Positions 44,760-63,313 of a stretch of 64,000 nt of DNA are shown piece after piece. This DNA is from Leptolyngbyaceae cyanobacterium. GTDB taxonomy: Bacteria; Cyanobacteriota; Cyanobacteriia; Cyanobacteriales; Aerosakkonemataceae. Location: the NCBI GenBank assembly GCA_036703985.1, contig DATNQN010000020.1, positions 62,001-126,000 on the forward strand, read 5' to 3'. Below the pieces are notes generated by a model that was given only the letters and a program-made list of their open reading frames with translations, did not search any database and was not told the DNA's origin. The position numbers and the translations under genes were made by a program. Each line of letters starts with the position of its first letter. Position 1 is the first letter of the stretch.

Positions 44760-45178
44760 GTCGTACTTATATATCATCTACGCTGCGACAACTGGTTTAC
44801 GATCGCGCTAACGGTTGTTGCGAATACTGCTTGATTCCAGAAGCAACATCCTTTGCCAAACATGAAATCGACCATATTATTGCTGAAAAACACGATGGGT
44901 TAACGGAAGCTGAAAATCTCGCACTTTCTTGTACAGTATGCAACAAACATAAAGGCAGTGACTTAACTTCGATCGATCCCGAAACAAGTCAAATTACTCC
45001 ACTATACAATCCTCGTCGCGATCGTTGGTCGGAGCATTTTCAATTGAGTGATGGTCAATTCATTCCCCTGACAGCAATTGGTCGCGTTACTATTCGCTTA
45101 TTACAATTAAATCACCCAAACAGAGTTAAAGAACGTCAATTACTAATTGCTACCAATTTGTTAACTTTGCCAGACTGA
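44756..45178 (+). CDS. HNH endonuclease, copy 1
   Basis: 140 residues from GTG. Zinc-finger Cys pairs CEYC (22-25) and CTVC (59-62) bracket the nuclease motif HEIDHI (36-41), with Asn54 in NLALSC and NKHKG (63-67). After the domain comes IDPETSQITPLYNPR..RW.EHF, shared with the copy at 58976-59398. Likely a nonspecific or site-specific DNA nuclease; the partner gene directly precedes it. Confidence 0.9.
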   Translation: MSRTYISSTLRQLVYDRANGCCEYCLIPEATSFAKHEIDHIIAEKHDGLTEAENLALSCTVCNKHKGSDLTSIDPETSQITPLYNPRRDRWSEHFQLSDGQFIPLTAIGRVTIRLLQLNHPNRVKERQLLIATNLLTLPD

Positions 45179-58975: not shown

Positions 58976-59398
58976 TTAAACTTCAGGGGGATGCCAATCT
59001 TTAGAAATCCACATAATTCGGGCTGCCACAGCATAATCATTATTTAACCGCAAGGCAACTACAGTAGCACGACCAGTTGGAGTTAAACCAATAATATGAG
59101 AGCCATTATTTGCCCAAGCAAAATGCTCTCCCCACATCTGTAGGCGTGGATTAAAAAGAGGCACTAACTGACTCGTTTCTGGATCGATATCATCATTTTT
59201 TCCACCTTTAAACTCATTACAACGGTAGCAAGACGCAGCTAGATTTTCCCGTTCATCACTACCACCTAATGACTTAGGAATAATATGATCTATTATTAAC
59301 GGCATACCAATTAGACGGCTCGATGTGCGGCAGTATTCACAGCGATGTCCCGCTTCAGCCCAAACTTGCGCTCGGATTCTTTTCGGAATAGATGACAC
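58976..59398 (-). CDS. HNH endonuclease, copy 2
   Basis: 140 residues from GTG. CEYC (20-23), IIDHIIP (35-41), NLAASC (52-57) and CNEFKG (60-65) form a normal HNH fold. The tail IDPETSQLVPLFNPR..MWGEHF matches the copy at 44756. Only 2 bases separate it from the partner gene. Likely DNA nuclease. Confidence 0.9.
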   Translation of the reverse strand: MSSIPKRIRAQVWAEAGHRCEYCRTSSRLIGMPLIIDHIIPKSLGGSDERENLAASCYRCNEFKGGKNDDIDPETSQLVPLFNPRLQMWGEHFAWANNGSHIIGLTPTGRATVVALRLNNDYAVAARIMWISKDWHPPEV

Positions 59399-59400
59399 GA

Positions 59401-59823
59401 TTATTCTAGCGGTAATTCATTTAATGTTGGTATCCGATGACCGCGCCAACTTAAGACAGACCAAGCATAAGCTTTTCGCAACATTAACTGGTCAGCAGTT
59501 ATTCGCAAATCACTTAGTTCTTGGCTTTCTTCTACAGTTATTGAACCAGCTTGATTTTTTTCTAGCAATTCCAGATGGCGTTCTTGTTGAGGTGCTGATA
59601 GATTGCTATGAGCGATTTTGAGTAATTCTTCAACTGGTAAAGTTTGCATCAGTAGTAATTCCCCTTGCATTTCGGGCGGTGCGTTAGCTATAGAAGGAGG
59701 TAAATTTGTGGTAATTCTCTGTGCTGCAACTATTTCTAAAGATTGGTTTGTTAATTCGGCAATCCGAGCTAGTTCTTGAAATATCGATTCAGGCAGTTCG
59801 ACCATAACTCTGCGCGTAGACAT
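59401..59823 (-). CDS. Partner protein of HNH endonuclease, copy 2
   Basis: 140 residues. N-terminus RRVMVELPESIFQELARIAELTNQSLEIVAAQRI is like a ribbon-helix-helix protein; the C-terminal half has LLEKNQAGSITVEESQELSDLRITADQLMLRKAYAWSVLSWRGH. The LLEKN..G..T.EE region is common to the copy at 44406. The pairing is conserved even though the N-termini differ, suggesting a functional link with the nuclease. Confidence 0.8.
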   Translation of the reverse strand: MSTRRVMVELPESIFQELARIAELTNQSLEIVAAQRITTNLPPSIANAPPEMQGELLLMQTLPVEELLKIAHSNLSAPQQERHLELLEKNQAGSITVEESQELSDLRITADQLMLRKAYAWSVLSWRGHRIPTLNELPLE

Positions 59824-60123: not shown

Positions 60124-61260
60124 ATGCGTTTACTACGAGTTCAAGTTCCTGACTTTCGCGTTTTACAGAATGTTGACATTACCTTTGAAAAAGATTTTTT
60201 TCCTAATATTTTCCCCCTTGGTAGCCAAAATGGTGGCGGAAAAAGTACATTATTACAACTGATTTTTGGATTGCTGCATTGTTCTGGTAATCCAGAGCGG
60301 TTAGATTTTTTGAGAACTTTGCTTTATGGAGTTAAAATTTATGAGATAAGGCAGAATTTCGCATTAATTGATATTTGGGATGGAGAAAAAGTTATAAGGC
60401 TAAGTTTTTCCATTCAAAAGAAAGTCACACTGAAAATACCGCCAGAAACAAATGACAGAATATCTGCAACAATTTGGGATGAAGATGCTAATAATAGGGC
60501 AGAAATAGAAATATGCAAATATTCATCTAACGGCGATGATAAGGAAGATAACATTTTATTTTGCCATCTAGATAACATAAATATAATCAAAGGAGAATCT
60601 TTTCTCAAAAACCTTTCACAAAAAATATTTCTTGCCGCTCCTGCTACCCAAGTTTTCCTTTTTCTTTCTCCGAATTCAAGAAAATTATTATTCAGAGAGC
60701 AAACTAAAAAAAGTGATTACAATTCAGATTTACAAGATGCTAAATCTAAGTTACCAGGGTTATTTACTTATGATTTTATAGCTGTAGATCTTATGGCTAA
60801 AGCCTTGCGAGCAGCTATAGCTGAAGATTTGAGACAAATTACAGAAACAGGTAAATATGGAAATAGTTATAAAGAATTAATTGAAGATTTACATCTAATT
60901 TTAGGAAACAAAAAAATAAATTTGGGGACAGATTTTGATAGCGTCAATTTTAAATTAGATAAAAATGGTGAAACTTTAGAACTATATCCTGAAGATTTAA
61001 GTCATGGCGAATTAAAAAGACTTAGCATTTATATGTGGCTGAAATACTATAATATAGAAGATGCGATCGTCCTCATGGATGAAATAGAAATTGCATTTCA
61101 TCCAGATTGGCAATATCAAATAATTTCAGACCTGAAAGAATGGACACCAAGTAATCAATATATTCTGGCAACTCATTCTTATGAACTATGTCAAGCACTT
61201 ACGCCTGCTCATGTTAAGGAACTAGAACCAAAACTTCTCAAACAAAAACCGTCAAATTAA
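60124..61260 (+). CDS. ABC-type AAA ATPase (OLD/SMC-like)
   Basis: About 378 residues from the ATG at 60124 (MRLLRVQVPDFRVL); a GTG six bases upstream is possible. The P-loop GSQNGGGKST is at about 33-42, the ABC signature LSHGELKR near 292-299, Walker B IVLMDE near 315-320, and the H-loop LATHS near 349-353. All are intact. Between P-loop and signature is a long helical insertion. Such ATPases drive nucleases in defence systems. It is followed by 2 bases and the TOPRIM-like gene. Confidence 0.85.
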   Translation: MRLLRVQVPDFRVLQNVDITFEKDFFPNIFPLGSQNGGGKSTLLQLIFGLLHCSGNPERLDFLRTLLYGVKIYEIRQNFALIDIWDGEKVIRLSFSIQKKVTLKIPPETNDRISATIWDEDANNRAEIEICKYSSNGDDKEDNILFCHLDNINIIKGESFLKNLSQKIFLAAPATQVFLFLSPNSRKLLFREQTKKSDYNSDLQDAKSKLPGLFTYDFIAVDLMAKALRAAIAEDLRQITETGKYGNSYKELIEDLHLILGNKKINLGTDFDSVNFKLDKNGETLELYPEDLSHGELKRLSIYMWLKYYNIEDAIVLMDEIEIAFHPDWQYQIISDLKEWTPSNQYILATHSYELCQALTPAHVKELEPKLLKQKPSN

Positions 61261-61262
61261 TC

Positions 61263-62210
61263 ATGAGTTTCGATCCAGAGCAGTTAAAGCGACACTGTGA
61301 AATTATTATTCAATCTCGGAGAATTAAAAATAAAATAGTTGTGTTATGTGAAGGAGAAGGAGGTATTAAGGATAATCAGTATAGGTTATCGCCGCAATCT
61401 TATGCCAGAATGGAGCAAATGCCCGATGCAAACTTCTACAAAGCGTGTGTTCCAAGATGGTGGAGTCAGTATAAACCGGAATTTTTTAATTGTGGCGATC
61501 GCAAAGATGTAATAGATACCTATTTTACACTTTTAGAGATTCATCAACAAGATAGTAATAACTCATATTTAACACCTGAGAAACTTTTTGCGATCGTAGA
61601 TTTGGATATTCAATTACAAAAAATTAATAATTATATTTTTCCCGATACGGAAGCTATTTTTAGCAGCCTTTACGACAAATGCAAAGTCAATGAAATAAAT
61701 GCAGATAATCATCGTATATGGGTGACAGGTTTAATTCATAAAGAAGCTTATTTTTTAATACCAGATTTACAAGAGGTATTTGATAGTAATTTGGTATCTT
61801 TACTTTATAATGGTAACACTTTGGTGCTTGAAAATATTTACTTAGCGATAGCATCTACAATAAGCAATGACACCGATTTAAAAAATAATTTACCAAGAAT
61901 AGCTAATCGAATTAATTATTTATCTGGATTAGATTGTACTGATGCAGATAAATTGCGTGATTCGTGGAAAACAGAGTTTGACAATACGCAAGATGATATA
62001 CAGAAAAATGAGTTAATCCTTGCTTTACTGACAATCAAAAAAGCTAAGGATTATTGGAATCAAATTCATCCTCCTAGTGACTACAGTTCTACAGCAGAGA
62101 AATTTAGAGAACAACTATTATTAAAAATAGCAGAATTTTATTCACATAAAAGTAGCGAGCCTAAATATCATATTTCTTTTTTATTGGCAGCCTTACATAA
62201 GTTTGTCTAA
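61263..62210 (+). CDS. TOPRIM-like protein, function unknown
   Basis: 315 residues. The early VVLCEGEGG (Glu30) and later FAIVDLDIQ (Asp113, Asp115) recall the acidic residues of TOPRIM nucleases such as the OLD or DUF4435 proteins. Further blocks are WVTGLIHKEAYFLIPD (about 153-168). I remember similar sequences from other cyanobacteria, always unnamed. The spacing between Glu and Asp is longer than usual, so the fold is inferred. It is in operon with the ATPase (2-base gap). Confidence 0.75.
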   Translation: MSFDPEQLKRHCEIIIQSRRIKNKIVVLCEGEGGIKDNQYRLSPQSYARMEQMPDANFYKACVPRWWSQYKPEFFNCGDRKDVIDTYFTLLEIHQQDSNNSYLTPEKLFAIVDLDIQLQKINNYIFPDTEAIFSSLYDKCKVNEINADNHRIWVTGLIHKEAYFLIPDLQEVFDSNLVSLLYNGNTLVLENIYLAIASTISNDTDLKNNLPRIANRINYLSGLDCTDADKLRDSWKTEFDNTQDDIQKNELILALLTIKKAKDYWNQIHPPSDYSSTAEKFREQLLLKIAEFYSHKSSEPKYHISFLLAALHKFV

Positions 62211-62251
62211 GTTTTGCACGAATGTGGTTTTGTTCTCTTCAAATCCTAAAA

Positions 62252-63229
62252 ATGGATAATAATAACTTTTCTACTCCACTTTACCGCACCAAATACGGTC
62301 AAACCTATTTAGGAGATTCTACCGAACTTCTCAAATATCTCGATACTAACTCGATAGATTTACTCATCACATCGCCACCTTTTGCATTGCAACGCCAAAA
62401 AAGCTACGGCAATGAAGACCAAGATAATTATGTTGATTGGCTATTAGGATTTGCACCGGAAATTAAACGAGTTTTAAAAGAAACTGGCAGCTTTGTCATT
62501 GATTTGGGTGGCGCTTATCAAAAAGGGATACCCGTTCGTTCTTTATATAATTATCGGGTTTTAATTAAATTGTGCGATGAATTTGATTTTAAATTAGCTG
62601 AGGAATTTTTTTGGTTTAATCCTGCCAAACTCCCATCACCTATTGAATGGGTAAATAAAAGGAAATGGCGAACGAAAGATGCGGTTAATACTATTTGGTG
62701 GCTATCAAAAATCAACACTCCAAAAGCAGATGTATCGAAAGTGAAAGCGCCTTATTCGGAACGAATGAAAAAGTTACTCCAAAATGCTGATTCTTACTAT
62801 ACGCCAAAGGAGCGGCCTTCTGGTCATGATATTAGTAATAAGTTTGCGGTAGATAATGGAGGAGCAATTCCCTCAAATTTTATATATAATTTTCTAGAGA
62901 TACCAAATACGGAAAGTAACTCTCAATATTTGCGTCTTTGTAAACAGGTTGGTATTAAAGGTCATCCGGCACGTTTTCCAGTGGACTTGCCATCGTTTTT
63001 TATTAAGTTTTTGACCGATCCGGGAGATGTTGTATTGGATATTTTTGCGGGTTCTAATACGACTGGATATGCTGCTGAGAAACTGGAGAGAAAATGGATC
63101 GCTTTTGAGAAAAGTCGGGAGTATGCTGCTGCGTCTATATTTAGATTTTTACCGGAAGAATGTTTTGGGGACGCAAGTAATATTTACGATCGCCTTTTAA
63201 AAGAACAGTCCTTCGATCTTAGATTGTAG
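62252..63229 (+). CDS. N4-cytosine-type DNA methyltransferase
   Basis: About 325 residues from the ATG at 62252; an ATG at 62222 is also in frame. Motif IV TSPPF (about 40-44) comes first and motif I FAGSNTTG (about 265-272) near the C-terminus, the permuted beta-class order. LPSPIEWVNKRKWR, DAVNTIWWLSK, RPSGHDIS and HPARFPVDLP strongly recall M.PvuII and relatives, which modify the N4 of cytosine in CAGCTG. Specificity is only suggested. No restriction endonuclease of that kind is adjacent. Confidence 0.88.
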   Translation: MDNNNFSTPLYRTKYGQTYLGDSTELLKYLDTNSIDLLITSPPFALQRQKSYGNEDQDNYVDWLLGFAPEIKRVLKETGSFVIDLGGAYQKGIPVRSLYNYRVLIKLCDEFDFKLAEEFFWFNPAKLPSPIEWVNKRKWRTKDAVNTIWWLSKINTPKADVSKVKAPYSERMKKLLQNADSYYTPKERPSGHDISNKFAVDNGGAIPSNFIYNFLEIPNTESNSQYLRLCKQVGIKGHPARFPVDLPSFFIKFLTDPGDVVLDIFAGSNTTGYAAEKLERKWIAFEKSREYAAASIFRFLPEECFGDASNIYDRLLKEQSFDLRL

Positions 63230-63263
63230 ATTACACGGGTTTGCTTTAAATGAAATATGCGCC

Positions 63264-63296
63264 AGAAACCCGGTTTCTTCAAGAAACCGGGTTTCT
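63264..63296. repeat. 33-base palindrome, copy 2
   Basis: Identical to the element at 41903-41935 (AGAAACCCGGTTTCTT plus complement). It lies between the convergent methyltransferase and porin genes and probably acts as a bidirectional terminator. Confidence 0.85.
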
Positions 63297-63313
63297 AAGT
63301 ACCTCAGTTTTGA

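Follow-up and report, generated by a model that had tools for sequence, protein, structure and literature searches.

A divergent PARIS-like ATPase–TOPRIM gene pair, probably a defence cassette, followed by an apparently unrelated M.PvuII-like methyltransferase in a Leptolyngbyaceae cyanobacterium

Within the 64,000-nucleotide stretch of Leptolyngbyaceae cyanobacterium contig DATNQN010000020.1 analysed here (the window), which is carried by a genome assembly of 7.68 Mb, three intact genes follow one another on the forward strand: a gene for an ariA-like ABC ATPase of 378 aa (60124..61260, +), a gene for an ariB-like TOPRIM protein of 315 aa, a predicted nuclease according to structure prediction and profile comparison (61263..62210, +), and a gene for an M.PvuII-like DNA methyltransferase of 325 aa (62252..63229, +; an alternative start at 62222 gives 335 aa). 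The three adjacent genes are two units, the ATPase–TOPRIM pair and an apparently unrelated methyltransferase, and we consider it likely that the pair is a divergent two-gene defence cassette of the AriA/AriB type, similar to the phage anti-restriction-induced system (PARIS), by which bacteria sacrifice infected cells to resist viruses. This reading stems from the strict pairing of the two genes, the intact ABC motifs of the ATPase, the predicted AriB-like fold, the invariant TOPRIM residues, the low G+C, and the patchy distribution. Re-derivation of the open reading frames (ORFs) confirmed the coordinates and gaps given in an earlier note on this DNA (the preliminary description), with 2 bases separating the ATPase and TOPRIM genes, and 11 or 41 bases separating the TOPRIM gene from the methyltransferase starts at 62222 and 62252 respectively, the latter of which fits M.PvuII better. 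The G+C of the three genes is 0.32, 0.32, and 0.37, with values of 0.43–0.51 for the upstream genes from Sua5 to rplU.

A TOPRIM core had been recognised by eye in the 315 aa protein, and both its predicted structure and its comparison with DUF4435 profiles agree with this assignment. The AlphaFold (AF2) model of the protein has a predicted local distance difference test score (pLDDT) of 90.4 and a predicted template modelling score of 0.88, and is confident except at approximately residues 31–50. Comparison of this model using VIA-align ranks AriB of PARIS first (8ux9_A; Z 10.6, root mean square deviation 4.9 over 211 residues, 13% identity, model residues 4–312) and second (8v46_D; Z 10.5 over 213 residues), followed by the OLD TOPRIM 6nk8 (Z 7.5) and the retron Eco8 effector (Z 4.6), with all other folds at 3.9 or below. 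The predicted AriB-like fold spans the whole protein. Relatives were collected by scanning one genome per species, yielding 56 loci, to which 18 further loci were added, and an alignment of 44 sequences (A1; effective number of sequences 3.2) was built from the window protein, 39 of the 56 loci, and 4 of the 18. Partial, broken, and near-duplicate copies and a few others were omitted (L024, L025, L028, L035, L039, L046, L049, and L063, as well as L065–L067, L069, and L071–L075). Residues L28-C29-E30-G31, D55, D113, D115, T155-G156, and H159-K160-E161, among others, are invariant in this alignment, and include the predicted acidic active-site residues of the TOPRIM core (E30, D113, D115, and E161).

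Profile comparison using hhalign gave a score of 46.8 (46.1 in another run; E 9e-6) between the family and 21 cyanobacterial DUF4435 proteins, compared with 27.9 for the best of 100 column shuffles, 13–14 for reversed profiles, and 31.0 and 23.1 for the RloB and OLD TOPRIM families, with the C-terminal half of the 315 aa protein lacking a usable alignment in global mode. Removal of residues 33–52 raised the DUF4435 score from 46.8 to 50.5 (maximum of 60 shuffles, 21.7), with LCEG aligning to the EG motif of DUF4435, FNCGD to the CxGK region, and IVDLD to IDxD. When 20 residues were instead deleted at each of four other positions, the scores were 19.1, 46.9, 47.2, and 47.2, the deletion of residues 61–80 abolishing the alignment and that of residues 121–140 extending it toward the third motif. 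When residues 119–143 were removed in addition to 33–52, T155 and E161 aligned to the DUF4435-invariant T109 and E115, and the five positions that never vary among the 21 DUF4435 proteins (E36, G37, D91, T109, and E115) thus pair with E30, G31, D113, T155, and E161. Relative to AriB and DUF4435 proteins, the 315 aa protein differs in an insert of ~20 residues (about residues 33–52) after the first TOPRIM motif and in extra spacing before the third. We conclude from these alignments and the predicted model that the protein is a divergent DUF4435/AriB relative with an insert placed immediately after the catalytic EG, and this insert probably accounts for existing profiles missing the protein. 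Judging from the order of the aligned residues, E30 probably corresponds to E26 of AriB, whose E26A mutant, unlike the wild type, failed to stall ribosomes (PMC12409363).

The identification of the first gene as an ABC-type ATPase likewise held, with Pfam scores of 47.1 bits for AAA_21 (cut-off 27) and 41.7 bits for AAA_15 (cut-off 32). Its Walker A (residues 33–42), signature (~293–296), Walker B (D319-E320), and H-loop (H351) motifs are invariant in 26 aligned ATPases (A2), chosen as being complete in one reading frame. A profile built from the family scored 15.1–51.3 bits against every one of the 26 ATPases located upstream of DUF4435 genes, compared with -1.7 to 10.9 bits against all 14 ATPases found upstream of RloB genes; four of the 30 DUF4435 loci (L119, L121, L135, and L137) have no upstream partner of at least 250 aa, L121 being a 535 aa fusion. 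Along with the structural and profile matches to AriB and DUF4435, this result supports the resemblance to PARIS-type modules that had been proposed for the pair. Residues 96–150 of the ATPase are hypervariable, with the corresponding stretch 47–184 aa long and showing a mean pairwise identity of 21% over 49 sequences, whereas the remaining segments reach 62, 48, and 76%. This stretch is a candidate sensor. The window ATPase is a short form, with the long insert of many relatives missing here and in Argonema and present in G401, a genome of the same family, such that long and short forms occur at one chromosomal site. By eye, the longer versions resemble a hairpin of coiled coils. The stretch carries a slightly negative net charge (-4.3 per 100 aa), which lends no support to its being a copy of the positively charged sensing surface of AriA (PMC11455837).

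The two genes form a conserved cassette. ATPase sequence lies directly upstream of the 315 aa relative, on the same strand, in 53 of the 56 loci (in L039 as a remnant only), with the remaining three either truncated by a contig end, so that the sequence begins within the gene (L067 and L073), or fragmented and lacking an ATPase (L074). Of the 71 loci in which the gap between the genes was measured (these 53 and the 18 further loci), 68 have values of -14 to +28 bases, and the outliers are -122 (L039), 106, and 107 bases. Several limits apply to this set: L002–L019 have flanks of 1.5 kb, some other loci end at contig borders, L071 and L072 are one contig, and some entries of L002–L019 and L178–L188 seem to duplicate other genomes. 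In the one-per-species scan the nearest copy of the 315 aa protein is that of Argonema antarcticum (81% identity), while that of G401 shares 83%, and the family reaches down to ~31% identity. Most loci are cyanobacterial, with a few records from Thiotrichaceae, Planctomycetota, Chloroflexi (Chloroflexaceae), and Bacteroidota, several of which are metagenome assemblies. Across the phylum the pair was present in 19 of 386 genomes; among relatives it occurred in 12 of 60, and within the window's own family in 4 of 10. In a tree built by a quick method, in which 16 of 41 inner forks are weak, Nostocales copies fall into separate groups and the window copy lies among Nostocales, suggesting that the pair has spread by horizontal transfer. 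Ratios of nonsynonymous to synonymous substitution rates (dN/dS) relative to the Argonema copy are 0.20–0.22 for the TOPRIM gene and 0.22–0.37 for the ATPase gene, and chance ORFs were rejected given the conservation of the pair and these values of ~0.2–0.4. A Prochloron contig (L056, 82–4761) carries two ATPase–TOPRIM pairs in tandem, the second TOPRIM gene being partial.

The detection rule for PARIS (PMC9122126) combines an AAA_15 (32 bits) or AAA_21 (27 bits) ATPase with a DUF4435 protein of at least 27 bits. The window ATPase passes this rule, whereas the TOPRIM gene fails it, with no DUF4435 match at E ≤ 1, and the pair is therefore outside PARIS as defined by the published rule, yet PARIS-like in its working as far as its anatomy shows. 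The order of the genes, an ABC ATPase followed by a TOPRIM protein on the same strand, is identical to that in 26 cyanobacterial DUF4435 loci. DUF4435 proteins over the cut-off occur in 33 of 292 genomes of the phylum, at least 10 of which also carry the divergent pair. No published description of the pair was recognised in the literature searched, mostly at the level of titles and abstracts.

RloB is a TOPRIM-like protein, and RloA/RloB pairs are AbiL-like. These pairs share the two adjacent genes and their order (14 of 14 RloB loci), but RloB proteins are shorter (196–235 aa), match the 315 aa family less well, and are accompanied by ATPases scoring no more than 10.9 bits. Furthermore, the PF13707 match of RloB is absent from the 315 aa protein, and the window's own genome has none, compared with matches in 24 of 80 genomes. 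The Septu/retron ATPase PtuA has a similar head (Z ~15), however its partner is the HNH protein PtuB, in agreement with PDB titles, rather than a TOPRIM protein.

Several results weigh against a PARIS-like assignment, and concern the 315 aa protein, the ATPase, and the surroundings of the pair alike. The 315 aa protein fails both the DUF4435 profile and the PADLOC AriB profile, the latter scoring 94–157 bits with four of four DUF4435 proteins used as a positive control, and has no match at E ≤ 1 in Pfam, PADLOC, or NCBIfam, and two chance-level rows in PHROGs (best 0.068). Weak DUF4435 matches were obtained for two of the 44 aligned family members (best E 0.016), and searches of PDB sequences with phmmer and hmmsearch gave chance-level matches only. 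Foldseek alone returned nothing at E ≤ 0.001 from the PDB or BFVD, so the match to AriB rests on the second look at the predicted model with VIA-align. The hhalign score was lower (37.0) when the comparison was confined to nine AriB-like sequences, and here removal of residues 33–52 brought no gain (37.2). The ATPase scores equally near PtuA and AriA, both by PADLOC (65 and 55 bits respectively) and by fold comparison of its AF2 model (pLDDT 80; Z 15.2 and 14.7). The neighbourhoods of the pair do not resemble defence islands, and no copy was found in collections of phages, plasmids, and viral contigs, where 52 pattern matches yielded none that was confirmed. Finally, 8 of the 19 genomes with the pair have a PvuII-type methyltransferase match anywhere, compared with 2.1 expected (P 0.0004, uncorrected for kinship).

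The position of the ATPase between PtuA and AriA is compatible with a separate ATPase–TOPRIM family of the same fold, in which the TOPRIM protein cuts or nicks DNA in the manner of OLD or Gabija and the trigger is unlike that of PARIS. OLD and Gabija GajA likewise combine an ABC ATPase with a TOPRIM core, the OLD TOPRIM ranks directly behind AriB in the structural comparison, and the TOPRIM insert and variable ATPase stretch could alter substrate and sensor. However, AriB lies ~3 Z units above OLD, the profiles favour DUF4435 (46.8) over OLD (23.1), and the ATPase and TOPRIM genes are split as in PARIS, whereas OLD and GajA are each one protein (PMC10568477). We therefore regard a DNA-targeting family of this kind as unlikely.

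The surroundings of the pair were scanned using 79 of 157 pre-selected neighbour ORFs, with readings taken from the best 25 of 134 and the best 25 of 114 families. By our reading, the nearest neighbours are mostly metabolic genes, with dapL-like (16 loci) and leuS-like (10 loci) genes recurring. PADLOC (E ≤ 1e-6) matched 134 models to at least one of the 79 neighbours, each model to no more than three; among the matches listed, a type II methyltransferase model, an orphan methyltransferase model, and the AbiU, AbiLi, and AriA models each have one neighbour, and PDC-S03 has three. The preliminary description had named the absence of methyltransferases and other defence genes from the neighbourhoods as speaking against its proposal; this is largely what was found, though a few of the 79 do match defence models, one of which is a methyltransferase of a different class (probably the gene that precedes the pair by ~3 kb in L055). 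The pair has the character of a free-standing cassette and not of a defence-island component. Such neighbours, together with the absence of copies from phage, plasmid, and viral-contig collections, would suit a housekeeping or cell-regulatory module without a role in defence, as reported for the archaeal OLD-family ATPase Cran1 (PMC12796447). This explanation appears very improbable considering the small share of genomes carrying the pair in the phylum and in its own family, the split of Nostocales in the tree, the G+C of 0.32, and the hypervariable ATPase stretch.

The methyltransferase is of the PvuII type, as previously described, with 432 bits to 1boo and ~60% identity to the pPvu1 enzyme. 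It differs from a PvuII restriction-modification system in that no R.PvuII endonuclease was found in the window or in its own genome, in line with the companion-less state noted before; as the PF09225 profile matched no control genome, the R protein of a relative was used as the query, which matched the control genomes G103 (its own) and G127. Twelve cyanobacterial relatives were fetched with 10 kb, comprising the eight best and four weaker of 42 other matching genomes. An R.PvuII homolog adjoins the methyltransferase tail to tail in six of the twelve (46–51% identity, one partial), all among the eight closest and none among the four weaker. No M.PvuII homolog was detected by tblastn in the examined pair flanks of 74 other loci (18 with 1.5 kb flanks, some cut by contig ends), or beside the pair in 14 near-relative loci partly overlapping these. 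At the rplU site, G401 and Argonema (L020, to which L190 from G413 is a match, apparently representing the same genome) have the pair without the methyltransferase and without the HNH gene found upstream in the window, and G425 also carries the pair without the methyltransferase.

Of the three-gene operon proposed earlier, the first two genes thus stand as a conserved unit and the methyltransferase does not, judged by the loci and the same-site genomes, and its suggested role as self-marker finds no counterpart in the flanks of the 74 and 14 pair loci. Cooperation of all three genes, with the methyltransferase marking self DNA and the ATPase–TOPRIM pair attacking unmarked DNA, could be argued from their common strand and short gaps, from their G+C, lower in all three than in the upstream genes, and from the above-chance occurrence of PvuII-type methyltransferases, whatever their kind, in genomes that carry the pair. 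Strong full-length matches number just two (G000 and G153) among those eight genomes, compared with 1.2 expected, with the other six matches lying in open frames of 885–931 aa (four) or 369–375 aa (two), and the methyltransferase is near the pair in none of the eight except that of the window. With the methyltransferase beside no other examined pair locus, R.PvuII accompanying six of the eight nearest relatives fetched for the methyltransferase, and the pair at the corresponding site of related genomes without it, methyl self-marking by a three-gene system was rejected as exceedingly improbable. We judge the methyltransferase to be unconnected with the pair, a leftover of a PvuII restriction-modification unit that lies behind the cassette by chance. 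The genome contains 811 copies of the PvuII site CAGCTG; the window has 14, compared with 17.2 expected. The second PvuII-type methyltransferase match of the genome (L106, 1–2169, -; G000:C21:46732-47709) lies toward the N-terminus of an ~886 aa open frame whose C-terminal extension is long, and which could be a methyltransferase-nuclease fusion; frames of 871–931 aa with such a match also occur in other genomes.

In PARIS, AriA forms a hexamer that can hold as many as three AriB, binding of Ocr releases AriB, which dimerises and cuts tRNA-Lys, and the trigger in E. coli is an anti-restriction DNA mimic (PMC11455837). The window pair possesses the components that such a scheme requires. By analogy, the ATPase may assemble into a scaffold that keeps the TOPRIM protein inactive until a phage product, possibly sensed through the hypervariable stretch at residues 96–150, frees it. 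The freed protein would dimerise and cut RNA, probably tRNA, using two metal ions, so that translation stops and the infection is aborted. If it acts as AriB does, the nuclease would target tRNA and not unmethylated DNA. The M.PvuII-like methyltransferase would have landed behind the cassette from a PvuII restriction-modification unit. Whereas a PARIS-like logic of the pair is probable, tRNA as the substrate is put forward with less confidence, and complex formation and trigger are likewise borrowed from the known system, which also tempers the assignment. More tentatively, the pair might represent a distinct, uncatalogued, cyanobacteria-centred class of ATPase–TOPRIM abortive-infection systems, with a split-motif TOPRIM nuclease acting on a new RNA target and a modular ATPase sensor. 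As the sensor stretch ranges from 47 to 184 aa and differs even at one chromosomal site, each lineage would in that case recognise different phage products.

Upstream of the pair, at 58976-59823 (-), an HNH endonuclease gene (140 aa), IscB/PtuB-like by profiles, lies 2 bases behind another 140 aa gene without a family match, neither of which was found at the corresponding site in Argonema or G401. An HNH stretch at 44771-45157 is 40% identical to this gene. A short palindrome at 63245-63300, between the methyltransferase and a downstream porin-like gene, appears by eye to be terminator-like or similar to a miniature inverted-repeat transposable element. Additionally, CTGCAG and GTCGAC (10.7 and 5.9 expected) and GAGCTC (2.5 expected) are absent from the window (1–64000), hinting at restriction-site avoidance.

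While a methylation-guided TOPRIM system was a tempting idea, it is removed here as unsupported. PARIS has been counted using the DUF4435 profile (PMC9122126), and since this rule misses the subfamily described here, cyanobacteria probably have more PARIS-type immunity than such counts show. The divergent family offers independent material for identifying the features of AriB that set the tRNA target, and those of AriA that set the trigger.

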